Part shown: one piece after another, positions 3,289 through 20,344 of the stretch | How the letters are laid out: the number at the start of each line of letters is the position of its first letter | How positions within the stretch are numbered: the first letter of the stretch is position 1 | IMG/VR virus record: IMGVR_UViG_3300025483_000094 | Location: 1-20,344 of that record | Direction: 5' to 3' (one strand) | Source of the DNA: a virus | Length of the DNA stretch: 20,344 nt | The notes under the pieces: model-generated | What the model saw: only the letters and a program-made list of their open reading frames with translations | Databases searched by the model: none | Told to the model about the DNA's origin: nothing | Made by a program: the position numbers and the translations under genes

Positions 3289-3555
3289 ATGACTAATAGT
3301 GAAGAAAAATCCGTCCCACAATTTGAAAGTGATACAGAATACTTTAAGTGGGCGTTTGAGCAAATCAGTAAGAGCATCAAGAATCTTGCGGAGCGTCAAG
3401 CAGTATTGGAGCAAGCGTTTCAGAGACTACCGCCTCCTGGTGCGGATATGGTGAAGTATAAGATTCCAGGTGATGATGAATACAGCAATCTCAAGGAATT
3501 ACTAGATAATATCTTTGAGCGGCTAAATACGATTGAAACCGTTAACGGTATATAA
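3289..3555 (+). CDS. Small coiled-coil-like protein upstream of structural gene
   Basis: An 88-residue protein with two helical stretches. FESDTEYFKWAFEQISKSIKNLAERQAVLEQAFQRL (12-47) has regular hydrophobic spacing that fits a coiled coil, and the end NLKELLDNIFERLNTIETV is a second one. Between them is a Pro/Gly-rich break (PPPGADMVKYKIPGDDEY). Its TAA stop overlaps the ATG of the 1255-residue gene by one base (TAATG), so the two are translationally coupled and it may serve as an assembly partner or chaperone for that protein. I do not recognise the family. Confidence 0.65.
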   Translation: MTNSEEKSVPQFESDTEYFKWAFEQISKSIKNLAERQAVLEQAFQRLPPPGADMVKYKIPGDDEYSNLKELLDNIFERLNTIETVNGI

Positions 3556-6500
3556 TGGCAGCGTATGTTGAGGAAACTGCACGCAGTTACCCCAATCCAA
3601 TATCATCACAAGAAATGGCGGGTAGTTTCAAACGACCATCGTCGTCGAAATATCGCTCGCATGAATCTGTACCATTAATGGGGACAGGCACCGATTATCA
3701 GATTGTATTTCAAGGTGCGGGACCTGGATCATATCCTCTGGGAAAAGACTCTGTACACTATATTGGGGATAATGATAAGACCTGTGTAGGAAATTGTGAT
3801 GGAGAGCGTCAAGCGATCTATCGTTTCTGGAGAAGTAATAAAAGAGATCATAAGTATACAATCACACCCAAGGTCCTAGAGAAGGATATGGGTAATGAGA
3901 ATGAAGATTGGCAGTCAGCAGCAGGTGGTTATAGAGCAGAGCCAAAGAATGGTAAACCTGTATTTTATTTGCTAAGAGAGCAACTAGAGAATACTGTCCC
4001 TCTGAAATTATTCTATTCATATTGGCCTGACAATACATTGCTACATGCTGGTAGTGGTAATCCTTCAGGTGTCAGTATAGGTAATGGTAAAGGCAAGTAT
4101 GCTGACCTGGGTGTCATTGGGTATGTCTATACCTCACAGCAGAGCAACACAGTGCCACTGTATCACTACCGCTACGGTAACTACAGTGCTGGTAGTGGTA
4201 AAGACATTGATGACTTCTATACTATCGACCCAGCCCAGGAAGTCAACCTAGGTGGTGGTCCTATACCTCCCAAAAAGCAACGTGGTGGAGATTGGCAGTA
4301 TCAAGGTATCGAGTGTTATGTTTATAGCAATGAAGATCCGAATGCACCTAAGAAACAATATAGAGATGTAGGTAAGATCGGTCCTACTGGTCAGTGTATT
4401 AATAAGCGCGGTTGGTATGCATTCCAAGCAGACGACCAACCCTTTAACTGGAGAATTTATAACCGAGGAGGATATCCTGGTGGTTATGGTAATGGACCTA
4501 GTGGTCAAACTCCAGGTGTGTTGGGATTTGGTAATCCAGATAATGCTGAGATATTAGATGAAGAAGCAAACTTTGAGTGGTCGTATGGTCTGAATGGTGC
4601 AATCAAAGGAGCGGTGCCACGCTTCCTGGGATTTGAGGATAGTTATGACTCACAGTATTACTATTATCTTTACGACACAACATATCCTTGGAATGGTCCG
4701 ATCTTTGGTATTCAGTATCAGCTGAATGATGTCCCATGTTGTCCTAACACTACATGCCCAGATGAGAGCTCAGGTAGACCTAGACCTTGCTGTGTACCCA
4801 ATGATCACTTCTACTCTCATTTCTACGAGATCCGTGAAGATTCATGGGAGACAACAAAGACACGCATCAGTATTAATGACATCAGCACCAATGGTGTGAA
4901 AGAGGCATTCCAGAATATCGATACTGATAGTCGTCGTATTCTCTTCCGCTATACATCTACTACTGGTAGTTTCAAACGAGGAGATACGCTTAACGGTTGG
5001 ATCATCGGATCTGTAGTTTACTTTGGTGATGAGTTGAGAGCAGGGATGATTGAGCTCAATGCTGGTGCAGTGGGCGACAAGTTTACATACAATGGCACTA
5101 TTACTTCTGCAGATGGTGCGACTGCTATTGTCCTTGCAGGATATGGTATTCCTAATAAGGGAGCGTTTGCAGGTGTTTATGAATTCCCTAAGCGCATTTC
5201 TTACTACACAGTAGAGATTAACCCTAGAGCACTCATCCCTTCACGCACACTTGACCAGGCAACTGCGGAAGCAGTGATTGATAATAATGGATCGATTACA
5301 GAAGTGCTCGTTATTGGCGGTGGTCGTGGGTATAAGAATCCAACTATTGAGGCAATTAACCCCAGAGTATTAGATGCATTCTCTCCTGGAGACAAATCTA
5401 GGTTTATGCAAGACGGTGTTGTACGGGCACCAGAGAATGAAATCTCAGCATCCTTCTTAACTCCTGACTCTTCTAATCAGATTGACAATAACGTGCGCGA
5501 TACGTTTCTTGATTATGGTGTAGACATAGGTGAGATACCCTTTGCTTCAGATAAAAATGCAGAAAAAATCAAACTTAAGAAAGCAATCCTAGAAGTATCT
5601 GAGATTGATGAGGACGGAAGCATCATGTCGATCCGTGTGGTTGATGGTGGTGCGGGATATAACCAATCAGAGCCACCAACTGTGATGATTGTTGAGCCTG
5701 AGACATTTGATTATAAGTCACCAGAGATTGCAGAGGGCAATGAAAAGCAGGTAAAGCAAACTATTACACAGATGGGCACGGACTTTGCTTCAAAGTTTAA
5801 GGATGCAATGCCTGCAACTGAGTTTAATCAATTCAATAACTTCATGCAGACCTCGTTTGTTACCGCAACTGCAGGACCAAAGACCGCAGTTACTGATACT
5901 TACCTGCGTGTGCCCGATCGTGAAGACGGAGCAGAGACAAAGTATTGCTTTAATATCCCTGCAAAGTGTATTTCTATTCCTGTATCTGGCACTTTGACAT
6001 CAATTCCCTCTAACTGGGAGTCTCTATTTACATACACAACTGCTGATCCTGGCGTTGCTCAGTGGTATAAAGAGTCCACTGGATTGATCTCACAAGGATT
6101 TGCTCAAGCTGATGCATTTATTGATAACATGAGTAGTGCTTACGGTGCATTTGGTGGATCAAACTGTATCACCTCAGCGCAACCTAAACTGTATAATGTT
6201 AGAAGATGGTTTGACATGCCTTGTGCATACCTCGCTGCTGGTGGCAATGCGGCAGGTGAGCAAAAAGCATACGGTTATCTAGTATATAAGTATGGTGCAT
6301 CAGAAGAGCAAGAGGCATCATTCCGTGTCTCTATGGAAGTTGAAGGTAAGGTCATAGGATCAATGGGATCTGACTTTATGGACTTCCTGGATAATTTCCC
6401 TAAACCACAATTAACACCTACAAGAAAAGTGTCAGGTGCATACAGAACTTGGAGTTGTAGACAGAGTGGTGTTGATGGTAGATGTTATCGCGACCCAACA

Positions 6501-7322
6501 AATTCCAGCGACATTATTTTTGTGCCTGTTGGTCTGGATGAAAATACGTTTGATTATAACCGTAGTGGATACACTGAGTATCAGCAGTTTAAGCTCTGGT
6601 TGGGAGATAACCTAACTGGTGGTGGACTGACTTCTGGGACTACATCTTGGTCATGGACTGATGATGAGACTACAACAACTACTACAACTGATCCTGAAAC
6701 GGGACAGTCAACAACAACATCTACCACTACAAGTTATGGTGGCAGCACAGGATCTGCATACACTGCATTCACTGTAGACTGCAGTCCTAATCCTGGCAAT
6801 ACTAATGTGCCCAACGCTGATTGTTGGGATAAGTATGTGCGTGCCACAGGAGCGCCCTCAGACGCTCCTCTAAACGTTTACTGTGGATATGATGTAAATG
6901 GTAACGGGATCGGTGGAAAGCGATTCTGGGAGATCACAGGACCCTCTACGGGCACGATACCTGATGGATACACAACACCTACGGGTGCTGTAAATCCTTT
7001 CTGCTCTACTTGCGTCGGATCATCAACATTTCCCATATGGTCTATTCTCTTTGGTGGTGGTCCTCCTTCTGCAGGTCTAGATAATGTGAATGATGCATCT
7101 ATTGCTGTTGATCCTCAGCGTATCTACAATCATGGTGATGGTGTGGGCAAAGTTATGCAGATGGGATCATATGATGGCACCATGCTAGTTAGAAACTGGT
7201 TGACTGGTGGCACACTTGCTTTAAGTAGGACCATTCGCAACATGGGTAACCCATACTTTGATGAGTGTAATGGATTAAATAACTGGAGAGCAGGTAATGA
7301 AATTAACGACGACGTAATTTAA
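3555..7322 (+). CDS. Large virion structural protein with DUF5648-like repeats (1255 aa)
   Basis: A 1255-residue protein, probably part of the tail tip or a tail fibre. Residues about 86-260 hold up to three repeats of the DUF5648 kind. The clearest is VPLYHYRYGNY...DDFYTIDPAQE...WQYQGIECYVY (199-259), and QAIYRFWRSNKRDHKYTITP (from about 86) is another. These units occur in secreted and surface proteins. A Cys-rich loop (CCPNTTCPD...PRPCCVPNDHFY) lies near 394-424. Two GGxGY repeats (about 579-600 and 690-715) match those of the giant protein at 11530. A Thr-rich linker (about 1036-1062) precedes a Cys-containing C-terminal domain. The gene starts inside the stop of the small gene before it, and a PAAR-like gene follows after 1 nt, which points to a spike or hub role. 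No lysozyme domain was seen, so I do not call it gp5. Confidence 0.7.
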   Translation: MAAYVEETARSYPNPISSQEMAGSFKRPSSSKYRSHESVPLMGTGTDYQIVFQGAGPGSYPLGKDSVHYIGDNDKTCVGNCDGERQAIYRFWRSNKRDHKYTITPKVLEKDMGNENEDWQSAAGGYRAEPKNGKPVFYLLREQLENTVPLKLFYSYWPDNTLLHAGSGNPSGVSIGNGKGKYADLGVIGYVYTSQQSNTVPLYHYRYGNYSAGSGKDIDDFYTIDPAQEVNLGGGPIPPKKQRGGDWQYQGIECYVYSNEDPNAPKKQYRDVGKIGPTGQCINKRGWYAFQADDQPFNWRIYNRGGYPGGYGNGPSGQTPGVLGFGNPDNAEILDEEANFEWSYGLNGAIKGAVPRFLGFEDSYDSQYYYYLYDTTYPWNGPIFGIQYQLNDVPCCPNTTCPDESSGRPRPCCVPNDHFYSHFYEIREDSWETTKTRISINDISTNGVKEAFQNIDTDSRRILFRYTSTTGSFKRGDTLNGWIIGSVVYFGDELRAGMIELNAGAVGDKFTYNGTITSADGATAIVLAGYGIPNKGAFAGVYEFPKRISYYTVEINPRALIPSRTLDQATAEAVIDNNGSITEVLVIGGGRGYKNPTIEAINPRVLDAFSPGDKSRFMQDGVVRAPENEISASFLTPDSSNQIDNNVRDTFLDYGVDIGEIPFASDKNAEKIKLKKAILEVSEIDEDGSIMSIRVVDGGAGYNQSEPPTVMIVEPETFDYKSPEIAEGNEKQVKQTITQMGTDFASKFKDAMPATEFNQFNNFMQTSFVTATAGPKTAVTDTYLRVPDREDGAETKYCFNIPAKCISIPVSGTLTSIPSNWESLFTYTTADPGVAQWYKESTGLISQGFAQADAFIDNMSSAYGAFGGSNCITSAQPKLYNVRRWFDMPCAYLAAGGNAAGEQKAYGYLVYKYGASEEQEASFRVSMEVEGKVIGSMGSDFMDFLDNFPKPQLTPTRKVSGAYRTWSCRQSGVDGRCYRDPTNSSDIIFVPVGLDENTFDYNRSGYTEYQQFKLWLGDNLTGGGLTSGTTSWSWTDDETTTTTTTDPETGQSTTTSTTTSYGGSTGSAYTAFTVDCSPNPGNTNVPNADCWDKYVRATGAPSDAPLNVYCGYDVNGNGIGGKRFWEITGPSTGTIPDGYTTPTGAVNPFCSTCVGSSTFPIWSILFGGGPPSAGLDNVNDASIAVDPQRIYNHGDGVGKVMQMGSYDGTMLVRNWLTGGTLALSRTIRNMGNPYFDECNGLNNWRAGNEINDDVI

Positions 7323-7323
7323 C

Positions 7324-7857
7324 ATGGCATATGGATTTCTAAAACCTGTTGCATCGCTGAATGGTCTCCCATGCTCAGGACATGGGCTTTGTATACCATC
7401 CACCATTCACTCTATACAGGCGTGCGGCACGCCTCCAATCCCCTACAGCATCGTTATTAAGAATTTTACATGCTGGTGGCCTCCTTTGCCACTAATTCCG
7501 TTGACAGCGGTCAACCCATTTAGGGCAACTGTGCTTGTAAACATGCTTCCTATCATGACGATGGGTGATGTTTTCATTAATCATCCAGCAGTTTGTACAA
7601 ATATCATCATTTATTTGTGTCCTTGTGGCAAAGGTATCTGTGCGATCCCTACTCCTATCCCCTGTAGTCCTCTAACTATCGAAGATATGGGTGTAATTGG
7701 ACACCCAAGAATGGTTATGGCAACAACTCTGACAGTTTTTGCACTCAAATTGCCTGTTGCACGCATCCTAGACCCCCTCGGATTCGGATTTCCTGGTTTC
7801 TCTTACCCTTGTTCGTCGGTTGTTGCCTTCGGACACCCCACTGTGTTGTCCTCATAA
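7324..7857 (+). CDS. PAAR-like spike-tip protein
   Basis: A 177-residue, very hydrophobic protein with the repeating strands of PAAR proteins, which form a sharp metal-stapled cone on the central spike of contractile tails (T4 gp5.4) and type VI secretion systems. FRATVLVNMLPIMTMGDVFINHP (67-89) and TLTVFALKLPVARILDPLG (135-153) match the PAAR pattern 'tV.vng.p.aR.gD', including the literal PVAR. The end VVAFGHPTVLSS matches the closing strand. Ten cysteines and several histidines (for example CPCGKGIC, 99-106) could bind metal or form bridges, more than the usual three His and one Cys. At 177 residues it is longer than the classical size of about 100. It follows the 1255-residue gene after 1 nt, so they are probably partners. 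Confidence 0.75.
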   Translation: MAYGFLKPVASLNGLPCSGHGLCIPSTIHSIQACGTPPIPYSIVIKNFTCWWPPLPLIPLTAVNPFRATVLVNMLPIMTMGDVFINHPAVCTNIIIYLCPCGKGICAIPTPIPCSPLTIEDMGVIGHPRMVMATTLTVFALKLPVARILDPLGFGFPGFSYPCSSVVAFGHPTVLSS

Positions 7858-8774: not shown

Positions 8775-8962
8775 TGGCTAACAACCCGATTCCTGACCAA
8801 GGAAACGAATTCATTAAATCTGGGATGACGCTTATAACTGACCCCAGAAGTGATAAATATCTCAACAAAGTGCGTAAGCACAGTAACGATCCTCCCCAAG
8901 ATCGAAATTCAAAATGGTGTGGTGGTAAAAATGGGTTTGACGACTATGTAGAAAGGATGTAA
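8774..8962 (+). CDS. Small hypothetical protein coupled to gp25 (62 aa)
   Basis: A polar 62-residue protein: MANNPIPDQGNEFIKSGMTL, ITDPRSDKYLNKVRKHSNDP, then NSKWCGGKNGFDDYVERM. It lacks obvious helices in its middle and looks like a short flexible structural or assembly protein. Its stop overlaps the first base of the gp25 start (TAATG at 8959-8963), so its translation is linked to that of the baseplate wedge. I recall no named family. Its start is buried in the hairpin at 8747-8774. Confidence 0.65.
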   Translation: MANNPIPDQGNEFIKSGMTLITDPRSDKYLNKVRKHSNDPPQDRNSKWCGGKNGFDDYVERM

Positions 8963-9375
8963 TGCCATCTTACCGATTCAGATCTGAAAAATACGTCAGT
9001 AGAGGATACAAGGACTTGTCGATTACCTTCAAGTCTAATCCATCTACTGGCGATTTTGGCATAGTCAAAAATGAAAATGCGATTAAGCAAGCAGTTAGAA
9101 ACCTTTTATTGACTGATCTTGGTGAAAAACCTTTCCAACCCTCTGTTGGGTCTAGGATAAAAGGTCTTTTGTTTGAACCTTGGGATGTTTTTAGCGCAGA
9201 TGAAATAAAAGGAGAGATTAGAAACTGCTTAAGTCGTCTAGAACCTAGAATTGTGGTTACTAGAGTCGGTCTTCAGGATGATTCGGATATAAATGCTATT
9301 GCAGTTGAGCTTGATTATACTATTGTTGGTGAAACTGTTGTCCAAACTATCGAGTTTCTCTTAGAGAAGGCATAA
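8962..9375 (+). CDS. 25: Baseplate wedge subunit gp25
   Basis: A 137-residue protein of the gp25 family (phage T4 gp25, P2 gpW-like, type VI TssE), which links the wedges to the sheath and starts sheath assembly. The family core is plain: DFGIVKNENAIKQAVRNLLLTDLGEKPFQPSVGSRIKGLLFEPWDVF (31-77), with the EKPF-P-x-x-G motif (55-63) that corresponds to 'ERPF-P-x-x-G' in the family and the LLFEP ending. A C-terminal sheet follows (INAIAVELDYTIVGETVVQTIEFLL). Length is close to T4 gp25 (132). It sits directly before gp6 with 1 nt between, as in T4-like phages, where the two proteins bind each other. An in-frame GATAAATA (8852-8859) upstream could be a late promoter but may be coincidental coding sequence. 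Confidence 0.93.
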   Translation: MPSYRFRSEKYVSRGYKDLSITFKSNPSTGDFGIVKNENAIKQAVRNLLLTDLGEKPFQPSVGSRIKGLLFEPWDVFSADEIKGEIRNCLSRLEPRIVVTRVGLQDDSDINAIAVELDYTIVGETVVQTIEFLLEKA

Positions 9376-9376
9376 A

Positions 9377-11524
9377 ATGTCAGCAATTCCCTCACAACTT
9401 ACTTCTCTGGACTTCTTTGAGATCAAAGAATCCATCAGATCCTACCTCAGGACCCGTAAAGAGTTTACGGATTACGATTTTGAGGGAAGTAGCGCATCGT
9501 ACTTGATCGATATCCTTGCTTATAACACATATTATACAGCATTCAACGCTAATATGGCGCTGAATGAATCATTTCTTGAAACTGCAACCGTTAGAGACAA
9601 CATTGTCCGCATTGCAAAGCAGTTAAACTACACTCCTAGGTCGATTAAAGCACCTAAAGCGTGTATCAAGATCGAAGCACAGGCAGAATTATCGCTAAAT
9701 GGTATCACATTTCCCGAATTTGCGACTTTGAAGAAGGGAGATGTGTTTGTTGCGGAAAATGCACTCGATGCTTTTACGTTTACGCTCACAAAAGACATTA
9801 CAGTCCCTGTAAATTCCGCAACTGGACTGGCGGTCTTCAATAATGTCATCATTTATCAGGGCAATCTGCTCGCATACAACTATACAGTTGATTATACCAA
9901 GCAACAGGAGTTTCTAATCCCTGCAGAAAACGTAGATACCGATCTTCTCTACGTTGACATCTCTCCAAACGCGCAATCTTCGGAAACTGACACCTACAGT
10001 TTGGTCAATAACGCTACTTCGTTGACAGAAACCTCCAGAATCTACTATTTGGAGGAAACTGACGATCTCAGATATCGCCTAATCTTCGGTGATGGCGTTT
10101 TGGGACGCAAATTGATCGATGGTGAATACATCAGACTGGAATATGTGCAAACTGACGGTGTATCCGCAAACGGATCTAAGTCATTTAGCTTCATTGGCAA
10201 CATCATGGACTCTGATGGGCGTGTGTTGCCCACTTCGGGTATGAAATTGACTGTCTTGGAAGCAGCTCAGCAAGGTGAAGATCGCGAAACGGGTCTGAGC
10301 GTCAAATTCAGAGCACCTAGAGCGTATGCAACGCAAAACCGTGCTGTGACAGAGAATGATTACGAGCACATCGTCTCTGAAGTGTATCCTCAGGCAGCAT
10401 CAGTTACTGCATACGGCGGAGAGAGACTTTCTCCACCAATTTACGGTAAAGTCTTCATCGCTATCCGTCCTAAGACGGGCACAAAACTCAATGCGAGCAC
10501 AAAAGCGAAAATCAGGAATGATTTGAAGAAATTCTCGGTTGCATCAATCGATCCTGTCATCGTTGATCCCACTTCTTACTACATTATTCCCAAATCTTAC
10601 GTTTACTACGACGGAAACCAAACTTCCAACACTGGATCGCAACTTGGCACCAAAGTATTGCAGTCAATCGACCAATTTAACAAAGCAGGCCAAACAAACC
10701 GCTTTAATAACCGTATTGACGGATCTAAGTTTGGTGCTGTAATCGATAACAGCGATACATCCATTGCTGGTAGCGTAACTCAGATTACTTTGGGTCAAAA
10801 TCTGGATGAATTCACTTGGGGTCAGGTATTTACCCAATGTTTGGATTTTGGCAACAGAATTTACGATCCTTCAGCGTATGCTGGTAACCAGGGAAACACT
10901 GGTGGTGGCAATGCTGGTAACCAGGGAAACACTGGTGGTGGCACAGATGCCGATGGTAACATCGGTGGGTCAAAATGCGATCCTTCATTCTCTGTGGTCA
11001 AGTCTGGCACTTTCTATGCAACTGGTTATACCGAAGATCTGGTAAATCTTGCACTTGATGAAACAACTGGCGCTCAGATCATCACTCCTGCATTCAATTC
11101 CAACGTTAGCACTGAAGTTTTGGTCCCTGTCAATATCAGAGACGATGGTAAGGGTAATCTGATGCTTGTCACTAAACGTGATGAAACAGAATTGATTCTC
11201 AACCCAACAGTAGGCACGGTTGACTACGGATCTGGCAAAGTTTGCGTTGGTCCTCTGGCAATTTCTGATACTCCTGATAATTCAGAAAGACTACCCATTC
11301 AGGTCGTGCCTTACAGTGGATCTATTGATATTCCACCTGGCGTTGATCCCACAATCTTCAATCCAGCGGTTAATCCAATCGACTATACGATTAATACAAT
11401 TCCTATCCCCTCCTTCGATCCCAACAACTTCTCGGGATACAACTTCGGTCCTACAGGGGGTATAAATATCATTGATTACCCAATGGATTCTTTCGAGTAT
11501 CCAGTGCCAGACGGTTGTTTCTGA
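9377..11524 (+). CDS. 6: Baseplate wedge subunit gp6
   Basis: A 715-residue protein of the gp6/baseplate-J family, which forms the inner ring of the baseplate as a dimer and joins neighbouring wedges. The N-terminus is diagnostic: LDFFEIKESIRSYLRTRKEFTDYDFEGSSASYLIDILAYNTYYTAFNANMALNESFLETATVRDNIVRIAKQLNYTPRS (11-89). The GDGVLGRKLIDGEYIRLEY segment (about 238-256) is the J-domain hallmark. It is longer than T4 gp6 (660) because of a Gly/Asn-rich linker made of a perfect 33-bp tandem repeat (10878-10943) and a C-terminal extension ending with several Pro/Asn/Ile repeats. A late promoter box lies within its last codons (11461-11468). The next gene starts 5 nt after its stop. Confidence 0.92.
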   Translation: MSAIPSQLTSLDFFEIKESIRSYLRTRKEFTDYDFEGSSASYLIDILAYNTYYTAFNANMALNESFLETATVRDNIVRIAKQLNYTPRSIKAPKACIKIEAQAELSLNGITFPEFATLKKGDVFVAENALDAFTFTLTKDITVPVNSATGLAVFNNVIIYQGNLLAYNYTVDYTKQQEFLIPAENVDTDLLYVDISPNAQSSETDTYSLVNNATSLTETSRIYYLEETDDLRYRLIFGDGVLGRKLIDGEYIRLEYVQTDGVSANGSKSFSFIGNIMDSDGRVLPTSGMKLTVLEAAQQGEDRETGLSVKFRAPRAYATQNRAVTENDYEHIVSEVYPQAASVTAYGGERLSPPIYGKVFIAIRPKTGTKLNASTKAKIRNDLKKFSVASIDPVIVDPTSYYIIPKSYVYYDGNQTSNTGSQLGTKVLQSIDQFNKAGQTNRFNNRIDGSKFGAVIDNSDTSIAGSVTQITLGQNLDEFTWGQVFTQCLDFGNRIYDPSAYAGNQGNTGGGNAGNQGNTGGGTDADGNIGGSKCDPSFSVVKSGTFYATGYTEDLVNLALDETTGAQIITPAFNSNVSTEVLVPVNIRDDGKGNLMLVTKRDETELILNPTVGTVDYGSGKVCVGPLAISDTPDNSERLPIQVVPYSGSIDIPPGVDPTIFNPAVNPIDYTINTIPIPSFDPNNFSGYNFGPTGGINIIDYPMDSFEYPVPDGCF
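10878..10943 (+). repeat. Perfect 33-bp tandem duplication in gp6
   Basis: Two copies of a 33-bp unit (10878-10910 and 10911-10943), identical in DNA, encode AGNQGNTGGG twice. Identity at third codon positions implies a recent duplication or recombination rather than protein-level selection. It lies in a flexible linker, where copy number can change without harm to the fold. Confidence 0.9.
11461..11468 (+). promoter_or_regulatory. T4-type late promoter box inside the end of gp6
   Basis: An exact TATAAATA, preceded by a run of G. It would start transcription near 11478, about 50 nt before the ATG at 11530, and thus serve the giant gene alone. It also encodes Ile-Asn-Ile of gp6. Only two exact copies of the box were found in the window, and both sit at sensible distances ahead of transcription units. 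Confidence 0.55.
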
Positions 11525-11529
11525 GATAG

Positions 11530-14500
11530 ATGCAAAACAAAAACATTAACGTATCTGATCGCGTCGAAGGTCAACTACCTGAGTTTATCAGGGAAGAGGA
11601 TCAGCAGTTTGTCAATTTTCTCTTCGAGTATTACAAGTCTCAGGAGAAAACAGGCAGACCATACGATATCCTTAACAACCTTCTGAATTATCTCGACATA
11701 GACGAGTATAATATTCAGAATCTTTCTAGCGACACACAACTACTTTCCGATGTAGGTCTCAACGAAGACAAATTGGAAGTAGAAGGGATTGATGGATTCC
11801 TGGATCAGAATGGATCCATCCTGGTTGACAATGAAGTCATGTACTATGAGTCTGTGACTCGTGGTCCTGATGCTATTATCACTCCTGGTGTATCTATTGC
11901 CCAGTTTGATAAAAAGAAACAACAACTGGAAAATCCTTTTACACTGTTCGATGGTGTAAGATCACAGTTTACTCTGAATTTCCTTGGCACGCCTGTTTCT
12001 CCTCCAAGTGCTGAGCATCTTATTGTAATTACTTACAATTACTTCAATATCCCTGGGGTTGACTACTACCTTGAGGGAGATGAGATCCGTTTCACCACTC
12101 CACCCCGTCAAAGGACTGGTGTTGACAACTCAGACTTTACTCAGATCGTTTATCTGGTTGGTTATGCAAACCAATCTATTTTGACATTGGATTCCGTCCC
12201 ATTTGCCGAGTGGCAGGGTGGACATAACTATCCAATGCGTCTCAACACTCAGGCATACCGTCCTACATCAGAAATTGGTCTGATTGTTAACAGAAACGGT
12301 AAACTCCTCAAGCCTTACGAAGATTACTCCGTATTTGAAGACACACTGATCTTTGATGCACAACTGGGTGCTGCTGATACCATTCACATCCACTCTGTTG
12401 AGTATATTGCACCTTCATATGGATCTGGTGCAGATGCGATTGTCCAGGTATCTCCAAGCGGTACGGTCGATCGCTTGATCTCTAAGTCGGGCGGTAGTGG
12501 TTACCGTTTGGACTTCAATCCAAAGGTTACCATCATCTCAAAAAACGGTGAGGGTGCAACTGCTAAGTCGCTGATTGGTGGCGTTAAGGATATTCGTCTT
12601 ATTGACGGTGGACAGGGTTATACATCATACAACCCACCAATTCCTGTCATCGCTGAGCCCACAAACAGCAGCGGTAGTTTTGCTGTGCTGTCTTTGACTG
12701 TTGATGATACAACAGGACAAGTCGATTCTATTACCATCGAGAATTCTGGTAGTGGATATGACTTCATTCCCGCTATTACGTTTAGAAACCCCGCTGGTGC
12801 TGTAATTACTCAACCTCAGATTGATTCTGAAGGTAGACTTGTCCCCAACAGCATTGAAGTAACTGAATTTGGTCAAGGATACTCCAATCCTCCCATTGTC
12901 TATCTTGATCCTGCTCCTGAAGGCGGTATCAACGCTCAGGCAGTTTCTAGAATCAACCAGGACGGTCAGGTCTATGAAGTCCTGATCACAAATAGAGGTA
13001 GAGGGTATACAACACCCCCTAGAGCTCGTATTATCCAACCTGTGGGCGCACAGGTGCTTGACGTGACCGTTGCATCGGGATCTGTCACCAATATCGAAAT
13101 GCTGACTGGTGGACAAGGTTATACCGATGCTCCTTCCGTCTATATCGTTGACGATCGCAAAGATGCTTACGGTGTGCCTATCGGAGGCACTGGTGCAGAA
13201 GCAATTGCAACAATCTTCAATGGCGAGATCACTGATATCAACGTTGTCAATTTTGGTGAAGGATATTCATCTGAATTCCCTCCTAAAGTCTATATTGCTC
13301 AACCTCGTGCTGCTAGAGCGTCTGTAGACGTTGGTTTTGATGAAGTTACAGGTTTTGATATCATTGAGCGTGGGCAGGGTTACTCCCCCTCAGCATTCTT
13401 GGGGATATCTCGTGGTGTGTCTGGTCCTGTTGGATACGATCAACTCAGCAACGAAATCTATGCTGGTGAGAGTGCCCTGAGGCAGTCTACACACCCCCAG
13501 GGGTCGATTGTCACCAATCTGGACTCTCTCTTCCTAAAAGAGGTTTTTGATAAGTTTAGAAGACAGTTTCTGCCTACTATTGACGTTGACTTTAGCAAAG
13601 TCAACCCTGTGCAAGTCATTAAGACCATTAAAGACTTCTATATCTCAAAAGGCACAGAGCTTGCTACTCAGTATCTGTTTAAGATCCTGTTTGGTGAAAA
13701 TATTTCCATCTTCTACCCTAAAGATGAGATTCTCAGTCCTTCTGCAGCAACCTGGGTGGTTGACACCGTGTTGCGTGCTGAATTGCTCGAAGGTGACCCT
13801 GCTAACCTGATCGATTCTCAGTTGAATCAGTATGCTGACCCCGTTGACCAAAATATTAAGGCAGCAAATGCTTTGATTGAGAATGTCATCACTATCATCG
13901 AAGGTACTGACACAATTTACGAATTGGCAATCTCAGAGGAAACTCTGACTGGCGAATTCAAGATTCCTTACAAAACTACTCTGGTAGAACCTCTGTCTAC
14001 TGAGGGTCAGATTATTACTGTTGACTCTACCATCGGATGGCCTGCTAGAAACGGCACAATCCGTATTAATGATCAGGAAGAGGTCCAGTATAAGGAAAAA
14101 TCTCTTAACCAGTTTATCGAATGCACCAGAAGTAGGAATGGTGTTGTTGAGGATTGGGATCCTGGCACTGTGGTCCAATCGGATATCTTTGTGTATGTCA
14201 ATAGAGGCACAGCACAAGAATGTAAGATGCGTGTCCTGGGTATTGCTGAAGCAGGCACTACCGTGCTGGATGATACTGGATCTTATTACATTCAGGGTGA
14301 CAAACTAAAAGTTGCTAACCTGGGATCAACAGCACTTGATGAAAGACTGTCTTCTTGGTTGTATAACGTCAAGAAACTGATCAAGGTTAATCGTGTTGAG
14401 TCTGGTGGTGTTAATAACCAGACTGCAACTGTTTATTGTGATAATCCCCACGGTCTGCTGGTTTCTGATCAGGTGACAATCTATGGTGCAAACCCCGTTG

Positions 14501-17500
14501 TATATAACGGCACCTTTACAGTCACATCTCGTATTGACCCCTTAACTTTCTCTTATCAACTTAACACACCCACCGATATCATACCTCAGGGTAATATCTT
14601 GCTGTCAGTTGACCTTAACAGAGGTAAGTCAAACCAACAGTCAATTAACAAGGTTGTAAGTGAGTTTACGACTAATATCCAAAACTCCTTCTTTAATGAT
14701 ACTTATGTGTATGTGGCAGCATCTGGTCTGCCCAACTACAAGATTGGTCCTTTCATTGGATCGGCGCTTATCCCTGGTAACCAGCGTAAACTGCTGAGAT
14801 TCCCCAGGTCTGTCCAGACCATCTCTGAGCGTCAGGATGTTGCTACAAACTCACCTATTGGTGCATGGATCAATGGTGTATCTATCTGGTCCTATAAGTC
14901 TTCTGAATTTGTCCAATTTGGACCTCTGACAGCGGTTACAGTTACCAATAAAGGCGAAAACTATGATGCTGGTAACAAACCAAACCTTGAAATTACAGGT
15001 GGTGGTGGCACAGGTGCTGCTGGTGAAGTTATTGTTAATGGTAGTCTGACATCTTTTACTGTCACTAACCAAGGTAGTGGTTATACAGAATCACCTCTGG
15101 TTTCTATCGTTGGTGGCGGTGGTAGCGGTGCAACTGCACAAGCAGTTATCACTGGTGGTCGTGTTACCAGAATCCTGGTTGAGCAGCAAGGTAGTGGATA
15201 TATTTCTCAACCTAGCGTTGCTATTACTGGTGGCGGTGGCACAGGTGCAACAGCAATTGCTAACGTCCGTGGTCCTATTTCTGGTGTTAACATCACCAAC
15301 TTCGGCAGTGGATATACTTCAGATCCCACAGTTAGAGTCAACTCTGGTGAAGGTGCTCTGGCACAACCCATTGTGATCAATGGTCGTATCGTATCTATCG
15401 CTATTATTAACTCTGGTAGTGGTTATACCACTGCACCTAACGTAATCATCAATGGTGATGGTTTTGGTGCTATTGGTATTGCAACTATCGGCACCATTGG
15501 TGAAGACAAAGGACGTGTGTTGTCTGTGACCATTACCAATAAAGGTGTTGGATATACACAAGGCAATACTACAGTCAGACTTCAGTCTATCGGTGAGATG
15601 GCAACATTCACCCCTGAAGTGTTTAAGTGGAATAGAAACCTGCAGTATGACCTTGTTAATAAGTATGACTTCTCTAGAGGATACGTCTTCACTGGATATA
15701 ACAACCAGTTTGGTGGCGAATATGCTCACCTAAGTGACCCTAAAGAGTTGCGTTATGTGGTGGGTGATAACGTATTCTTAGATCCCGTTACTCAGCAATT
15801 CCAAGAGCTTGAGTCAAACTACAAGCACTCTCCGATCATCGGTTGGGCATTTGACGGTAACCCTATTTACGGTCCTTATGGATACATTGATCCCACTGAT
15901 CAAAACAGTGGCATCAGAAGACTGCGTACGTCCTATAAACTGAAAGATAACGTTGTTTTTGACGAAGCAACAAATCCAAACCCATCTCGTGTAGATGGTC
16001 CAACCATTGCGGACTATCCTGCTGGATCGTTTGTAGCAGACTACACCTACGACTTCCAGTCTGGTGACTTGGATAACTACAATGGACGATTCTGTAAGAC
16101 ACCTGAATACCCCGATGGCACTTACGCATACTTTATCACAATTGATGCGTCAGATGCTGGTATTGCAGAATTCCCATACATTGTTGGACCCCAGTTTAAC
16201 TCTCAGCCCGACGCGTGGAATTTCAACCAGGCAGCAACACAAGAAAATATCCCCTCTGACGTTGTAAGATACAGAGACCCCTATGTTGACGTTGACATTG
16301 ACATCGATCGTCAACCTAACCAAGAAGCAGATGTCCTGACGACTGAGGTCGAAGGATATCCCATCATCTTTGAAATCCAAGATAGCAACAATGATGGTCT
16401 GATTGATGCTAACGAGCAGCAAGAGATTCTTGAGATGTCTGAAGAGGCAACTCTACAAATCTATGACTACTTCCCTCAAGTATCGGCAGAATCTAGAGTT
16501 GATATCGAAGTTGAGACAACCACTCAATTTGAGAATGCTCAGATTGACGGTTTTGTGATTGAAAACCCTGGTGAGTCTTATCAGGTTAATGATACTGTCT
16601 TCTTTGATAATAAAGACACTGGTGGATTCGGTGCATCTGCAATTATCGAATCTGTTAAAGGTCAAACTATTCTTGGTTACACCAAGGAGATGATTGGCGA
16701 TCGCCCTTATGGTGTTATCACCACTGAGGTTGAGCACGAGTTGCGTCAGCAAGACGTTATCATTGTTAACTCACGTCCTATCACCGACAACACCAACAAA
16801 TCTTTTAGAGTTAAGGTTGTTGCTGGTGTTGAGAATATCCGTGTCCTGCAAGAGGGTATTGGATATAACGTTGACATTCCTCCCACTTTTGAGTTGATTA
16901 CTACTCAGGGTCAGGATGCTGCATTGCGTCTGAATCTGCAAAATACTGGTCAAGTGCAAACTGCAGACATCATTAACTCTGGTAATGGATACGATCCTGC
17001 GAATCCTCCTCAGATTCGTGTTTCTCATCCCCAGCAGTTTAAGAAGACTCGTTATTGGATTACTGACTATCTGGAAGCAACAGGTAAACTGACTGTTAAT
17101 GATGTTGTCCAGTCACAAGATCGCTATACCTATATTTGCGGTAGTGTTACTGAGCCTGATGGTGACCAGTCAGCAATTCTTGCCAAGTTTGATGACTTGG
17201 GACAACTAATCTGGGAGCGTACACTGATTCCCCAGAATGCTAATCAAAAGCGTGCCGAATTCATCACTATGACTCTTGAGGAGTCAGAAGAAAACGACCT
17301 CATTTATGTAACAGGCCAAACATATGATCCCAGTAACGATGTCTACAACCCTGACATCTGGATTGGTCTATATGAGTCTGGTTTTGATAATGCTGCTGCT
17401 CCCTCAGGTATTCTGAAGTGGCAAAGAGCAATTGGTGGTATCTCTGGCAGTACAAGACGTGATTATGTTACGTCTATCCGCCTCGACCAAGAAAAGCAGA

Positions 17501-20344
17501 TTTATCTGGCAGGTTATACTGATTCTAACTCACCCGATCCTTATGATATGTGGGTTATTCAGTGTAACCCCGAAGGAGACCTTGTAGAGAAGCGTAAGAT
17601 TGCTTCTGAAGATGGATCTGAGAAAATTTCTCAGATTGAGTGGATCTCAAATGATCGCTTCTTGTTTATCGGTGAAAACGAAGAGAATAACGACTGCATC
17701 TTCGGTGTATTCTTCTACGATGGTGCAAATATTGAAATTGATTATATTCGCCAGATCCCAGTGGTTGGTGGATACGTCAGAGACCCACAAATGGCATTTG
17801 ACGAGTATGGTGATGCTATTATCGTTTGGAATGTCTACAATAGCGCCGCGGCCAAGTATGATAAAGTCCAGATTAGCAAATTCCCCTATGCAAGTGCAAA
17901 TACTGGTTGGGAATGGACTAAGACCGTAACTGTAAGTGGAAATTTCCTCTCAATTAAGCACGCTGGAATTTCCGTTGATGTATTTGGCAACTATACCTTA
18001 GTATGTGACGTTGCTGGTGCTCAAGATGAAAGATATGCTCTGATTGAGTATATGAAGTATGATGGCACCCTTATTACAGAAACTAAGGTTGCAGATCCTG
18101 GAAATATTGGTTTCCAAGCGAAGAAGCACGTTGTTGACAACTCAGGCGACTGCATTATCGTTGCAGATCGTCGTCAGAGTGATCAGATTGCTTCATATCG
18201 TTTTAATGACGCTAATCTGTCTCTTGACTTCACTAAGCAAGACCTAGCAACAGTTGTCTACTCAGATCCTGGAAATACTGCACACGATACATCAATTTAT
18301 CGTTTTGGCACTGGATCGATGCGTTTGGATGCTGCAGCACCTGTAGCATATACCAATCTTGCTAAAGAAACTCAAGAATGGAGCATTCAGGCATGGTTTG
18401 CTATGAATGGCACTGCACATGGCACAAATCATCAACCAGTCTTCTTTGATATTACTCCTACTGCAGGTGTCCCCATCAGAGTGTCTATTGATGGCGATGC
18501 AACCTCACCTAACTATGAGCGTGTCCTTTTGTATGTAAATGATGTCCAAGTGGCGTCTTCTACTACAACAACCAACTGGACTTCCTTTGCTGGTGGAGTT
18601 TGGGTCCATATGACCTTCCAGAAGCGTGAAGAGTCTCTAGGTCTCTATCGTTACGAGGTATACGTCAACGGTAACCAGCAAATCACCTTCCAGAGCACTG
18701 ATGACATCTATGTTGATGATCTGTCACTGGCAGGTCCTCAAACTGCTCCTAATGCTACAAATTGCTTTATCGGTCACATTGATGACGTGGTTATCGATGA
18801 TATTGCTCCTCATGCAACAGGTAGCTATACTGTGCCCACTGAAGAGGTTGAAATTACCACTTCTATCTCCGATATTACCCTTATCAAGTTTGATAGACTT
18901 CAAACCAATAAGGACAATACTTATACATTGACAAATGTCAGAAATCATGGAAGTATCTCATTTACCGATGCTTCAACTCTGACATCTTGGTATGCACTGA
19001 ATATGCCTGCTCTGAGTGTATGGGAGATCGGACCTGGCGGTCTGCAAATCCTGGATATGTCCCAGACCTTCTCTACGCTGAATCCTGGCACTTATACTTT
19101 CAGCAGTGAGAGAGACTCCTTTGCATCGAAGACATCTACTGTCCCATCACCTCTTGGTAAGAAACTGCTAATTGAAGCAGATGTTGTCAATAAATTCTAC
19201 ATGCGTGATGCATTGTATCAGAAGATTGACAATGTGCTCAACTTTACGTTTAATCAAGATGTAAAACTGACTAAAGGGTCTATTCTGCAGCAATTCAATG
19301 CAGCAGGCGTTACTACTGCTTATGGCACGATCGTAAACGTCCCTACAGGCACTCTGCAGGATCCTGGTGTTGGCACCGTTTATGAAGTTGGTAAAATCTT
19401 CGGCACTTTTAACAATACTGATAGATTCCGCACAACTGCTGGTGATGTCAATGAAATTGCTGGCGAATACTTTGATAGCGAAGAGCCAGAATCACCCTGG
19501 CAGGCATCGACAGCATACCTTGCTCAGGACAAAGTTTACTATCAAAATCGTATCTATCAAGCACAGGGTGCTGGCACCTCTGGCACTATTCCTCCAACCC
19601 ACACTGACGGTGTTGTAAGTGATGGTGTTATCAACTGGGCATTTATCGATGCTGCAGGTAAGTTTGATATCGATCTTCTGCAACATCCTTACCCACGTCC
19701 TCAATACATCGGTAATGACATGCCTGAATGGCTGCCTCACCGTTTGTATGCTGTTGGGCAGAAAGTTTGGTATCGCCTCAACGTATATGAGGTAGCACCT
19801 AGCGGTGGTGGCGTTACTACCACTACACCTCCCATTCACACCACTGGTGACGTTTCTGACGGCACTGTGACCTGGAGATTCGTAGAAACTCGCGAGCCTA
19901 TCAGCGATTATGCTCGCTTCATGGAATATGATCTGGGCAACCACTATCAGGTCAGAATCGAAGAAATCCATCCTGGATCTCAGTATATCGTTGGTGACGT
20001 TGTTTCTCTGAGAGAAACTAACATTGAGCTGGCAGAAGATGAGAAGAGTGTCAGAATCGTCGGATTCCCCTCAGTCAAGAAGATTCGTGCTACTGCTCAA
20101 CTTGCGAAGGACATTATTCGCACTGGTGGTGAAGCACGCACAGATCATGTATATTGCACATCTAATTCACCACACTTCTATCAGTCTGGAGATATCATCT
20201 TCACTGAAGGTTTCCAAGGCACACAATTCAATGGATCCTTCTTTATTGATCAGATTCTAGGCACCAGAGAGTTTACCTTTGCAATTAGAGATATTGCAAC
20301 TGATGATCCTACATTTAATGCAAATTCGATTGCTAGCGTCAATA
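11530..20344 (+). CDS. Giant mosaic virion protein (partial, at least 2938 aa)
   Basis: The frame opens at the ATG at 11530, 5 nt after gp6, and has no stop before the window ends. The start is supported by position and by VEGQLPEFIREEDQQFVNFLFEYY, a plausible phage structural N-terminus. Visible order by residue: N-terminal domain (1-300); GxGY repeats (314-625); a conserved phage module FLKEVFDKFRRQFLPTIDVDF...FYISKGTELATQYLFKILFGENI (about 668-725); further beta domains; GxGY repeats (1134-1357); YHYH domain (1433-1556); EF-hand-like loop (1618-1629); GxGY repeats (1673-1834); beta-propeller-like stretch (1838-2247); LamG/ConA-like domain (about 2251-2437); two tandem binding modules (2656-2787). 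It holds the position of T4 gene 7, and the N-terminal part may replace gp7 as wedge organiser, with the rest as an adhesion arm. That role is inference; cyanophages carry very long proteins here, sometimes labelled VrlC-like. It is probably expressed late from the 11461 box. Confidence 0.85.
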   Translation, partial: MQNKNINVSDRVEGQLPEFIREEDQQFVNFLFEYYKSQEKTGRPYDILNNLLNYLDIDEYNIQNLSSDTQLLSDVGLNEDKLEVEGIDGFLDQNGSILVDNEVMYYESVTRGPDAIITPGVSIAQFDKKKQQLENPFTLFDGVRSQFTLNFLGTPVSPPSAEHLIVITYNYFNIPGVDYYLEGDEIRFTTPPRQRTGVDNSDFTQIVYLVGYANQSILTLDSVPFAEWQGGHNYPMRLNTQAYRPTSEIGLIVNRNGKLLKPYEDYSVFEDTLIFDAQLGAADTIHIHSVEYIAPSYGSGADAIVQVSPSGTVDRLISKSGGSGYRLDFNPKVTIISKNGEGATAKSLIGGVKDIRLIDGGQGYTSYNPPIPVIAEPTNSSGSFAVLSLTVDDTTGQVDSITIENSGSGYDFIPAITFRNPAGAVITQPQIDSEGRLVPNSIEVTEFGQGYSNPPIVYLDPAPEGGINAQAVSRINQDGQVYEVLITNRGRGYTTPPRARIIQPVGAQVLDVTVASGSVTNIEMLTGGQGYTDAPSVYIVDDRKDAYGVPIGGTGAEAIATIFNGEITDINVVNFGEGYSSEFPPKVYIAQPRAARASVDVGFDEVTGFDIIERGQGYSPSAFLGISRGVSGPVGYDQLSNEIYAGESALRQSTHPQGSIVTNLDSLFLKEVFDKFRRQFLPTIDVDFSKVNPVQVIKTIKDFYISKGTELATQYLFKILFGENISIFYPKDEILSPSAATWVVDTVLRAELLEGDPANLIDSQLNQYADPVDQNIKAANALIENVITIIEGTDTIYELAISEETLTGEFKIPYKTTLVEPLSTEGQIITVDSTIGWPARNGTIRINDQEEVQYKEKSLNQFIECTRSRNGVVEDWDPGTVVQSDIFVYVNRGTAQECKMRVLGIAEAGTTVLDDTGSYYIQGDKLKVANLGSTALDERLSSWLYNVKKLIKVNRVESGGVNNQTATVYCDNPHGLLVSDQVTIYGANPVVYNGTFTVTSRIDPLTFSYQLNTPTDIIPQGNILLSVDLNRGKSNQQSINKVVSEFTTNIQNSFFNDTYVYVAASGLPNYKIGPFIGSALIPGNQRKLLRFPRSVQTISERQDVATNSPIGAWINGVSIWSYKSSEFVQFGPLTAVTVTNKGENYDAGNKPNLEITGGGGTGAAGEVIVNGSLTSFTVTNQGSGYTESPLVSIVGGGGSGATAQAVITGGRVTRILVEQQGSGYISQPSVAITGGGGTGATAIANVRGPISGVNITNFGSGYTSDPTVRVNSGEGALAQPIVINGRIVSIAIINSGSGYTTAPNVIINGDGFGAIGIATIGTIGEDKGRVLSVTITNKGVGYTQGNTTVRLQSIGEMATFTPEVFKWNRNLQYDLVNKYDFSRGYVFTGYNNQFGGEYAHLSDPKELRYVVGDNVFLDPVTQQFQELESNYKHSPIIGWAFDGNPIYGPYGYIDPTDQNSGIRRLRTSYKLKDNVVFDEATNPNPSRVDGPTIADYPAGSFVADYTYDFQSGDLDNYNGRFCKTPEYPDGTYAYFITIDASDAGIAEFPYIVGPQFNSQPDAWNFNQAATQENIPSDVVRYRDPYVDVDIDIDRQPNQEADVLTTEVEGYPIIFEIQDSNNDGLIDANEQQEILEMSEEATLQIYDYFPQVSAESRVDIEVETTTQFENAQIDGFVIENPGESYQVNDTVFFDNKDTGGFGASAIIESVKGQTILGYTKEMIGDRPYGVITTEVEHELRQQDVIIVNSRPITDNTNKSFRVKVVAGVENIRVLQEGIGYNVDIPPTFELITTQGQDAALRLNLQNTGQVQTADIINSGNGYDPANPPQIRVSHPQQFKKTRYWITDYLEATGKLTVNDVVQSQDRYTYICGSVTEPDGDQSAILAKFDDLGQLIWERTLIPQNANQKRAEFITMTLEESEENDLIYVTGQTYDPSNDVYNPDIWIGLYESGFDNAAAPSGILKWQRAIGGISGSTRRDYVTSIRLDQEKQIYLAGYTDSNSPDPYDMWVIQCNPEGDLVEKRKIASEDGSEKISQIEWISNDRFLFIGENEENNDCIFGVFFYDGANIEIDYIRQIPVVGGYVRDPQMAFDEYGDAIIVWNVYNSAAAKYDKVQISKFPYASANTGWEWTKTVTVSGNFLSIKHAGISVDVFGNYTLVCDVAGAQDERYALIEYMKYDGTLITETKVADPGNIGFQAKKHVVDNSGDCIIVADRRQSDQIASYRFNDANLSLDFTKQDLATVVYSDPGNTAHDTSIYRFGTGSMRLDAAAPVAYTNLAKETQEWSIQAWFAMNGTAHGTNHQPVFFDITPTAGVPIRVSIDGDATSPNYERVLLYVNDVQVASSTTTTNWTSFAGGVWVHMTFQKREESLGLYRYEVYVNGNQQITFQSTDDIYVDDLSLAGPQTAPNATNCFIGHIDDVVIDDIAPHATGSYTVPTEEVEITTSISDITLIKFDRLQTNKDNTYTLTNVRNHGSISFTDASTLTSWYALNMPALSVWEIGPGGLQILDMSQTFSTLNPGTYTFSSERDSFASKTSTVPSPLGKKLLIEADVVNKFYMRDALYQKIDNVLNFTFNQDVKLTKGSILQQFNAAGVTTAYGTIVNVPTGTLQDPGVGTVYEVGKIFGTFNNTDRFRTTAGDVNEIAGEYFDSEEPESPWQASTAYLAQDKVYYQNRIYQAQGAGTSGTIPPTHTDGVVSDGVINWAFIDAAGKFDIDLLQHPYPRPQYIGNDMPEWLPHRLYAVGQKVWYRLNVYEVAPSGGGVTTTTPPIHTTGDVSDGTVTWRFVETREPISDYARFMEYDLGNHYQVRIEEIHPGSQYIVGDVVSLRETNIELAEDEKSVRIVGFPSVKKIRATAQLAKDIIRTGGEARTDHVYCTSNSPHFYQSGDIIFTEGFQGTQFNGSFFIDQILGTREFTFAIRDIATDDPTFNANSIASVN
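12469..13405 (+). repeat. GxGY repeat block 1 in the giant protein
   Basis: Eight or so units of the pattern 'i..gGxGY...PP.v.i..p...A.a...' occur at residues 314-625, for example SKSGGSGYRLDF, LIDGGQGYTSYNPP, IENSGSGYDFIP, VTEFGQGYSNPP, NRGRGYTTPP, LTGGQGYTDAP, VNFGEGYSSEFPP and IERGQGYSPSA. Each unit is about 35-45 residues. They form chains of small beta units in phage and bacterial surface proteins. Confidence 0.8.
14929..15600 (+). repeat. GxGY repeat block 2, Gly-rich
   Basis: Six units (residues 1134-1357) that are more alike than those in block 1. The ITGGGGTGA, IVGGGGSGA and ITGGGGTGA linkers are similar in DNA as well (GGTGGCGGTGG words near 15000-15245), and GSGYTESP, GSGYISQP, GSGYTSDP and GSGYTTAP follow in turn. 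The closeness suggests expansion by recent duplication. A final unit, KGVGYTQGNTTVRL, is more divergent. Confidence 0.8.
15826..16197 (+). other. YHYH domain within the giant protein
   Basis: Residues 1433-1556 follow the YHYH domain closely. They open with HSPIIGWAFDGNPIYGPYGY (1433-1452). About 80 residues on comes DLDNYNGRFCKTPEYPDGTYAYFIT, matching 'lDecNGr-c-TPEyPdGtYhYf'. The stretch closes with FPYIVGPQF. The motif that names the domain (YHYH) is changed to YAYF. The domain occurs in secreted bacterial proteins and in cyanophage structural proteins. Its function is unknown. Confidence 0.8.
16381..16416 (+). other. EF-hand-like calcium loop in the giant protein
   Basis: Residues 1618-1629 read DSNNDGLIDANE, with Asp1, Asn3, Asp5, Gly6, Ile8, Asp9 and Glu12 all at the canonical positions of a 12-residue calcium loop. 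A helix follows (QQEILEMSEEATLQIYDYF). A dockerin-like or single EF-hand calcium site could stiffen the join between the YHYH domain and the next repeats. Confidence 0.6.
16546..17040 (+). repeat. GxGY repeat block 3 in the giant protein
   Basis: Three divergent units at residues 1673-1837: IDGFVIENPGESYQVNDTVFF, VRVLQEGIGYNVDIPPTFEL-type, and ADIINSGNGYDPANPPQIRV. They share the 'xxGxGY...PP.i.v' plan of blocks 1 and 2 but differ in length and spacing, suggesting older copies. They separate the EF-hand-like loop from the propeller-like part. Confidence 0.65.
17041..18270 (+). other. Beta-propeller-like stretch in the giant protein
   Basis: Residues 1838-2247 contain repeating four-strand units with a shared phrase: DLIYVTGQTYDP...NPDIWIGLYES, QIYLAGYTDSNSPDPYDMWVIQ, and DRFLFIGENEENNDCIFGVFF, later NYTLVCDVAGAQDERYALIEYM and DCIIVADRRQSDQIASYRF. 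'iyltGyt...d.wv...' repeats are typical of SBBP-type beta-propellers, which often bind proteins or sugars. The number of blades (five or six visible) and closure are not certain. Confidence 0.55.
18280..18840 (+). other. LamG/concanavalin-A-like domain in the giant protein
   Basis: Residues about 2251-2437 have the LamG-like order: TSIYRFGTGSMRLDA (start strand), EWSIQAWFAMNG (core 'wsiqaWf' strand), PIRVSIDGD, ERVLLYVNDVQVAS, GGVWVHMTFQKRE (hallmark 'W.Hma..r'), RYEVYVNGNQQIT (hallmark 'vYvNG') and NCFIGHIDDVVI (closing 'iGhiDDv.i'). Such domains bind carbohydrates or proteins on cell surfaces, so a role in host adsorption is likely but inferred. Confidence 0.75.
19495..19890 (+). other. Two tandem carbohydrate-binding-like modules
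   Basis: Two copies of a unit of about 60 residues occur at 2656-2707 and 2733-2787. The first reads PWQASTAYLAQDKVYYQNRIYQA...TIPPTHTDGVVSDGVINWAFI. The second reads EWLPHRLYAVGQKVWYRLNVYEV...TTPPIHTTGDVSDGTVTWRFV. The pattern 'W....Y..gd.V.y..n.Y.a...g.s....P.Hs.G...DGtv.W.f' is that of small chitin-binding-like (CBM5/12-like) modules of phage tail proteins. A sugar-binding role is likely but not shown. Confidence 0.65.

Follow-up and report, generated by a model that had tools for sequence, protein, structure and literature searches.

Phage T4 has six copies of gp7, which is monomeric (PMC3004832). In phage XM1, the gp7 counterpart anchors two sets of separate spikes by means of an internal loop and its C-terminus (PMC10457771). 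For cyanomyophages and pelagimyophages, the published inference is that gp7 is absent and that VrlC replaces it (PMC7029224). In virions of the cyanophage S-SZBM1, S-SZBM1_208 (6,619 aa, 724 kDa) was detected by mass spectrometry with 71 peptides, and no long tail fibres were seen by TEM (PMC9146016). ORF122 of S-CREM2 was represented by 91 peptides in virion mass spectrometry (PMC10665884), and in chemostat cultures of S-PM2d strong parallel selection fell on structural and hypothetical proteins of very large size (PMC9910659).

Here we analyse a window of 20,344 nucleotides, the whole of the stretch taken from the virus record IMGVR_UViG_3300025483_000094 (IMG/VR). A giant frame at 11530-20344 very probably encodes the N-terminal part of a cyanomyovirus gp7, the baseplate wedge organiser, with a split core equivalent to T4 gp7 ~645-909 and with inserts that would serve as host-contact arms. 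This core is divided among several short, collinear pieces with large inserts between them. The frame, the two genes directly upstream of it and all the domains described below lie on the plus strand.

Genomic context and homologues

The giant frame starts with an ATG five bases past the stop of gp6 (9377..11524; phrog_219, E 2.8e-200), a baseplate wedge protein, which is itself preceded by the baseplate wedge protein gp25 (8962..9375; phrog_261, E 2.6e-49); the gene at the same position is annotated as gp25 in P-TIM40 and S-SM2. The gene order is gp25-gp6-[giant]-gp8, after which come VrlC or gp10-like genes; the part from gp8 onward is taken from relatives. T4 has gene 7 in the corresponding slot, so the assignment to the gp7 slot made in the initial annotation holds: gp25 and gp6 are present in the window and the gp8-slot gene is present in relatives. 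Gp105 of Sinorhizobium phage phiN3 and gp055 of Pelagibacter phage HTVC008M are orthologues of about 1,010 residues that fill this slot. The latter gene (I899_gp055, 14506-17556) bears the label 'head closure Hc2', and PHROG 701, 460 and 3465 carry the categories 'head and packaging' or 'connector'; all of these look like misannotations.

Further upstream, the window encodes a PAAR-type spike-tip protein (7324-7857; phrog_281), comparable to T4 gp5.4, whose gene immediately precedes gene 6, and a 1,255-residue protein (3555-7322) with DUF5648 above the cut-off and a match to a baseplate-wedge PHROG (phrog_719). Genes of similar size to the latter are found upstream of gp25 in P-TIM40, S-SZBM1 and S-WAM1. 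Two other genes encode an HNH endonuclease (1972-2430; HNH_3, E 7.5e-12), probably a homing endonuclease, and a putative 2OG-Fe(II) oxygenase slightly under the Pfam cut-off (339-968). A late-promoter-like sequence, NATAAATA, at 11461 was not above chance, with three occurrences in the window and about three expected.

The window protein matches PHROG 701 over residues 6-2934, and 278 phage records contain a homologue that spans 80% or more of it. The best of these, at 57-59% identity, belong to the cyanophages P-TIM40, S-SZBM1, S-WAM1 and P-RSM6, and the matches identify the window as part of a T4-like cyanophage genome. Among isolates, homologues measure 7,351 residues in P-TIM40, 6,737 in S-WAM1, 6,619 in S-SZBM1, 6,603 in S-TIM4, 5,195 in P-SSM2 and 4,156 in S-SM2. 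Those of P-TIM40 (PTIM40_99), S-WAM1 and S-SZBM1 (S-SZBM1_208, 'baseplate wedge initiator', PHROG 701) occupy the same slot and are orthologous across all 2,938 residues; in P-TIM40, the LamG region (residues 2100-2500) is far more divergent than the remainder. The giant is typical of a cyanomyovirus family that already bears the annotation 'baseplate wedge initiator', so the design that had at first been taken as unusual is standard in cyanomyoviruses. It had also been proposed to look for the protein in virion mass spectra, where two of its homologues, S-SZBM1_208 and S-CREM2 ORF122, have in fact been found (PMC9146016; PMC10665884).

A gp7 core in separate segments

Profile searches were run against 177,635 distinct PDB sequences. 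The profile built from the family of window residues 1-1130 (A1) matched only T4 gp7 and KP1 gp7, with E values of 1.8e-4 and 2.6e-4, placing window residues ~700-727 on gp7 731-758. A profile of segment C (A3), described below, again matched only these two gp7s, at E 0.0096 and 0.15 (the latter for T4 gp7), over gp7 862-909. With the profile of the short homologues (A4), gp7 was once more the only match (E 2.8e-6 and 1.2e-5), over gp7 645-830, and a weak second piece was seen at gp7 862-910. The similarity to T4 gp7 ~645-909 is therefore found with A1, A3 and A4. A small alignment of HTVC008M relatives and phiN3 (A2) gave no gp7 match against the PDB, where the wider A4 profile succeeded. No significant match to T4 gp7 1-640, the N-terminal domains contacting gp10, gp8 and gp9, appeared in the PDB searches with A1 and A4.

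In short and giant homologues alike (852 to 8,576 residues), segments A, B with the part following it, and C of the core are collinear. Segment A (residues 1-41; 11530..11652) is predicted to be helical and is aligned, via the short homologues, to T4 gp7 from ~645; where the ~1,010-residue orthologues are aligned with the giants, it covers window residues ~1-36. Segment B (residues ~660-735; 13507..13734) consists of helices and contains the signature KDFYISKGTELATQYLFKILFGENISI (residues 701-727), equivalent to T4 gp7 ~731-758. Segment C lies beyond the window, at residues ~3,340-3,600 in the giants (near 3,540 in relatives). An insert of ~570 residues separates A from B, and one of ~2,600 residues separates the beta-domain that follows B from C; the tail after C comprises ~3,000-4,900 residues in the large forms and ~1,650-2,650 in S-SM2 and P-SSM2. 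A match at window residues 1042-1068 (E 0.05) was weighed as a possible further copy of segment C and then discarded.

The predicted fold agrees with the profiles. An AlphaFold (AF2) model of window residues 1-1130 has a mean pLDDT of 73, with segments A and B modelled at middling confidence (pLDDT 55-70). Residues 740-908 of this model superpose on T4 gp7 762-844 (Z 8.0-9.1), and this beta-domain (13735..14253) directly follows segment B, in register with the sequence match. For the AF2 model of an 852-residue homologue (pLDDT 78), three gp7 structures took the top ranks with Z 9.6, 9.3 and 7.3, the next row scoring 6.7; a Z of about 9 is only moderately above the 7-8 typical of models that lack a clear match. 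The alignment of this homologue spans gp7 705-891 and skips the insert ahead of segment C, and Foldseek placed T4 gp7 first for it (E 5.1e-4, probability 1.00). For the whole 1,130-residue model, Foldseek returned mostly meaningless long alignments, with T4 gp7 at rank 4 (E 0.009), so only the domain-level comparison is informative. A T4-type core fold is found, then, in the window model as well as in that of the 852-residue homologue.

The initial annotation had pointed to residues 1-320 and 650-900 as the parts to compare with the T4 wedge proteins. Both regions do contain gp7 likeness, but it extends over residues 1-41 and ~660-908, with a third piece beyond the window, and residues ~110-627 are an insert. 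Its idea that wedge and adhesion modules share a single chain is borne out, given that the core is recognised by profile and by fold and that adhesion-type modules occupy the same frame. Overall, the earlier interpretation as a gp7-slot mosaic was largely right, except that the one-chain design is standard in cyanomyoviruses and not a one-off.

A different assignment follows from the published view that these phages lack gp7 and have VrlC in its place (PMC7029224), in which case the giant would be an accessory baseplate protein sharing only one domain with gp7. This view was put forward for cyanomyophages and pelagimyophages in particular, and VrlC is indeed present as a separate gene after gp8. 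However, a gp7-core orthologue occupies the gp7 slot of phages that also have VrlC, including HTVC008M, so the two genes coexist. In a six-frame search of six genomes, only the giant gene was matched by the core sections of the gp7 profile, the other matches of this profile falling on GxGY-type repeats, and on this search we reject VrlC in place of gp7 as an explanation of the slot. We consider the accessory-protein assignment unlikely as a whole. Given the coexistence of the two genes, the statement that gp7 is missing is probably wrong, and that comparison appears to have missed gp7 because only short, split segments of it are conserved.

It is also conceivable that the giant, encoded beside gp6, takes no part in the wedge and is simply a tail fibre or adhesin of great length. 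Most of the chain does consist of fibre- and adhesin-type modules, and PHROGs labels related families 'tail fiber' or 'virion structural protein'. Against this, two independent profiles and the fold comparison all point to a gp7 core, and the core sections of the gp7 profile match no second gene in the six genomes; we regard this assignment as very unlikely.

Extent and integrity of the frame

The frame runs for 2,938 codons and is stop-free up to the window edge, as first described. Since the window is a virus record of 20,344 bases, the gene is cut by the contig end and not by a stop. A stop-free run of this length has a chance probability of ~10^-77 at the window's base composition, and compared with the closest relative, dN/dS is 0.08-0.16 in each 400-codon block, which indicates purifying selection over the whole length. 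These two results rule out a chance open frame. The least conserved stretch of the protein is residues 2100-2500, where the LamG-like domain sits.

An uncultivated contig 89.6% identical across all 2,938 residues has a single uninterrupted frame of 6,845 residues, and a second one, 93% identical, has nearly the same C-terminus. A third contig (57% identical; G005, IMGVR_UViG_3300006329_000001, 73012-98742) contains one open frame of 8,576 residues, the longest homologue seen. Complete homologues range from 4,156 to 8,576 residues, with shorter homologues down to 852. The frames of relatives extend 11-17 kb further than the window edge, which rules out a stop just past it, one of the outcomes that had been named as fatal to the original proposal. 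Considering that the closest complete relative has 6,845 residues, the stop is expected ~11.7 kb past the window edge, and the gene at 11530..20344 would represent the first 2,938 codons of ~6,845. By sequence comparison, the window frame is thus the first ~43% of a predicted tail-baseplate protein of roughly 6,800 residues. Purifying selection and the uninterrupted frames of relatives together argue that the frame is neither a chance run nor a fused gene pair. That the mosaic is an artefact, either an assembly chimera or the frameshift between two genes against which the initial annotation had warned, might be suspected of a metagenomic fragment ending within a gene, but its probability is negligible, given that the same uninterrupted frame recurs in isolate genomes and in independent contigs of 89.6% and 93% identity and that purifying selection is uniform along the chain.

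Inserts and adhesion-type modules

Insert 1 within the gp7 core (residues ~110-627; 11857..13410) is beta-rich and confidently modelled, and contains eight GxGY repeats of ~40 residues; homologues of the S-SM2 and P-SSM2 type lack it. Insert 2 (14254..20344; from residue ~909 up to the window edge) parts segment B from segment C and ends near residue 3,480 in relatives. The GxGY repeats, already remarked on at the outset, are well above chance: the window protein has 15 motifs (8 at residues 322-615, 5 at 1182-1339 and 2 at 1776-1818), compared with a mean of 1.1 and a maximum of 5 in shuffles. The motif count delimits a second block of five repeats at residues ~1160-1360 (15007..15609). A PDB search with the GxGY block alone gave no match. 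Between the beta-domain and this second block, residues 947-1030 (14368..14619) form a small beta-barrel whose fold resembles phage endosialidase domains and domains of the E1 enzymes UBA1/UBA6. This was taken as a common small barrel rather than as kinship with either.

Among the modules of insert 2 proposed in the initial annotation, the YHYH domain (residues 1393-1540; 15706..16149) is certain (PF14240, E 3.5e-28), while the others proved weaker. The EF-hand-like calcium loop (residues 1618-1629; 16381..16416) is present as a sequence pattern, DSNNDGLIDANE, which is its sole basis. The propeller-like stretch corresponds to a weak match to the beta-propeller repeat SBBP in Pfam, below the cut-off (17443..17529). 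A LamG/concanavalin-like domain does match at residues 2276-2423 (18355..18798; PF13385), but its 26.3 bits fall just under the cut-off of 27.6. The two sugar-binding-like modules can be recognised by eye as CBM_5/12-like copy 1 at residues 2655-2706 (19492..19647) and CBM-like copy 2 at residues 2734-2785 (19729..19884), and the first is included in a stretch resembling a cyanophage tailspike receptor-binding domain (19240..19650; PDB 7eea, E 1.8e-7); the CBM_5/12 profile (PF02839), however, scored 20.3 bits with the whole protein and 23.9 with the C-terminal part alone, under the cut-off of 26.2. A further LamG-like domain, well above the cut-off, occurs in the tails of several relatives. 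The inserted modules may function in host recognition.

The gene after the giant (PTIM40_100, 38044-39624, in P-TIM40; S-SZBM1_207 in S-SZBM1) has a stretch in common with the YHYH region of the giant (positions 1422-1550 of the phrog_701 profile). This similarity suggests that modules may be copied between neighbouring genes.

Phycobiliprotein-like repeats in the tails of relatives

Helical repeats of ~130-160 residues that resemble phycobiliproteins, 3-9 per protein, occur in the C-terminal tail of relatives. They span residues 4019-5856 in the relative G001, 4020-6351 in P-TIM40 and 4193-5734 in S-WAM1, and so lie outside the window; they are assigned to the phage of the window only via relatives 90-93% identical to it. 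A profile of 22 repeats matched 136 PDB chains at E up to 10, and the best 60 of these 136 were all phycobiliproteins or close relatives, led by phycocyanin alpha (E 7.1e-7). Against PF00502 (cut-off 22.2), the whole tails scored 52.8 bits in S-WAM1, 46.6 in S-SZBM1, 28.0 in P-TIM40 and 26.7 in G001, that of S-TIM4 falling below the cut-off; no single repeat was seen above the cut-off when scored alone. In a profile-profile comparison, the repeats matched phycocyanin alpha with 92% probability, versus 0.2% for an unrelated control alignment, and a profile built from phycocyanin alpha alone matched the tails weakly. The cysteine of bilin attachment is kept in 38 of the 46 repeats and the neighbouring aspartate (CxRD) in 41 of them, aligned to the CARD motif of phycocyanin; by alignment numbering, these residues are the probable equivalents of phycobiliprotein Cys84 and Asp87. 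A query of two repeats retrieved 323 phage records, and every one of them bears the name of a Synechococcus, Prochlorococcus, cyanophage or marine phage. We found no description of such phycobiliprotein-like phage repeats in the literature searched.

The tail repeats are likely homologous to phycobiliproteins. Whether the cyanomyovirus baseplate carries captured phycobiliprotein domains of host light harvesting, most of them keeping the bilin cysteine and aspartate, is in our estimate an even question. Were this so, the six gp7 chains would put dozens of phycobiliprotein-like domains on each virion. A virion structural protein built from host light-harvesting domains would be unexpected. The repeats may act as spacers within the structure, as decoys or as ligands of host components, or may even bear bilins that a phage or host lyase attaches.

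Proposed baseplate design and comparison with known systems

In the design we propose, segments A, B, the beta-domain and C would refold into one gp7 core within the (gp6)2-gp7 wedge, with one giant chain per wedge and six per baseplate. The inserts and the tail would project outwards as arms bearing beta-repeat, YHYH, LamG and carbohydrate-binding-like modules. Upon contact of these arms with the cell surface, the signal could pass directly to the wedge via the one covalent chain. Cyanomyoviruses would then have replaced the docking of spikes by building recognition modules into gp7 itself. The lack of long tail fibres in TEM of S-SZBM1 fits built-in recognition modules, although it is not proof of them.

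The predicted baseplate would unite the wedge organiser and host-contact modules in one covalent chain of ~700 kDa, an alternative to the separate gp9-gp12 and long fibres of T4. The analysis also identifies gp7 in cyanomyoviruses and pelagimyoviruses, where published comparisons had counted it as missing. As far as we have checked, the split-core anatomy that ties the giant to gp7, the correction concerning the missing gp7 and the phycobiliprotein-like repeats are new.

Compared with T4 gp7 (PDB 5iv5, 5hx2) and KP1 gp7 (9f4a), the giants occupy the same slot and have a core equivalent to residues 645-910 by profile and by fold. T4 gp7, however, has 1,032 residues, with ~640 of them ahead of the core and only ~17 between the beta-domain and segment C, whereas in the giants the N-terminal domains were not detected and huge inserts and a tail are found instead. 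The proteins of about 1,010 residues from phiN3 (gp105) and HTVC008M (gp055) share the slot and the same collinear core segments with the giants, but they have no YHYH or LamG match and no phycobilisome-like repeats. In Vibrio phage XM1, gp17, a minimal gp7 of 242 residues, is the third chain of the wedge (PMC10457771), and by analogy the giant may resemble it in working principle. The host-binding spikes of XM1 are separate proteins, whereas the recognition modules of the giant would lie within its own chain.
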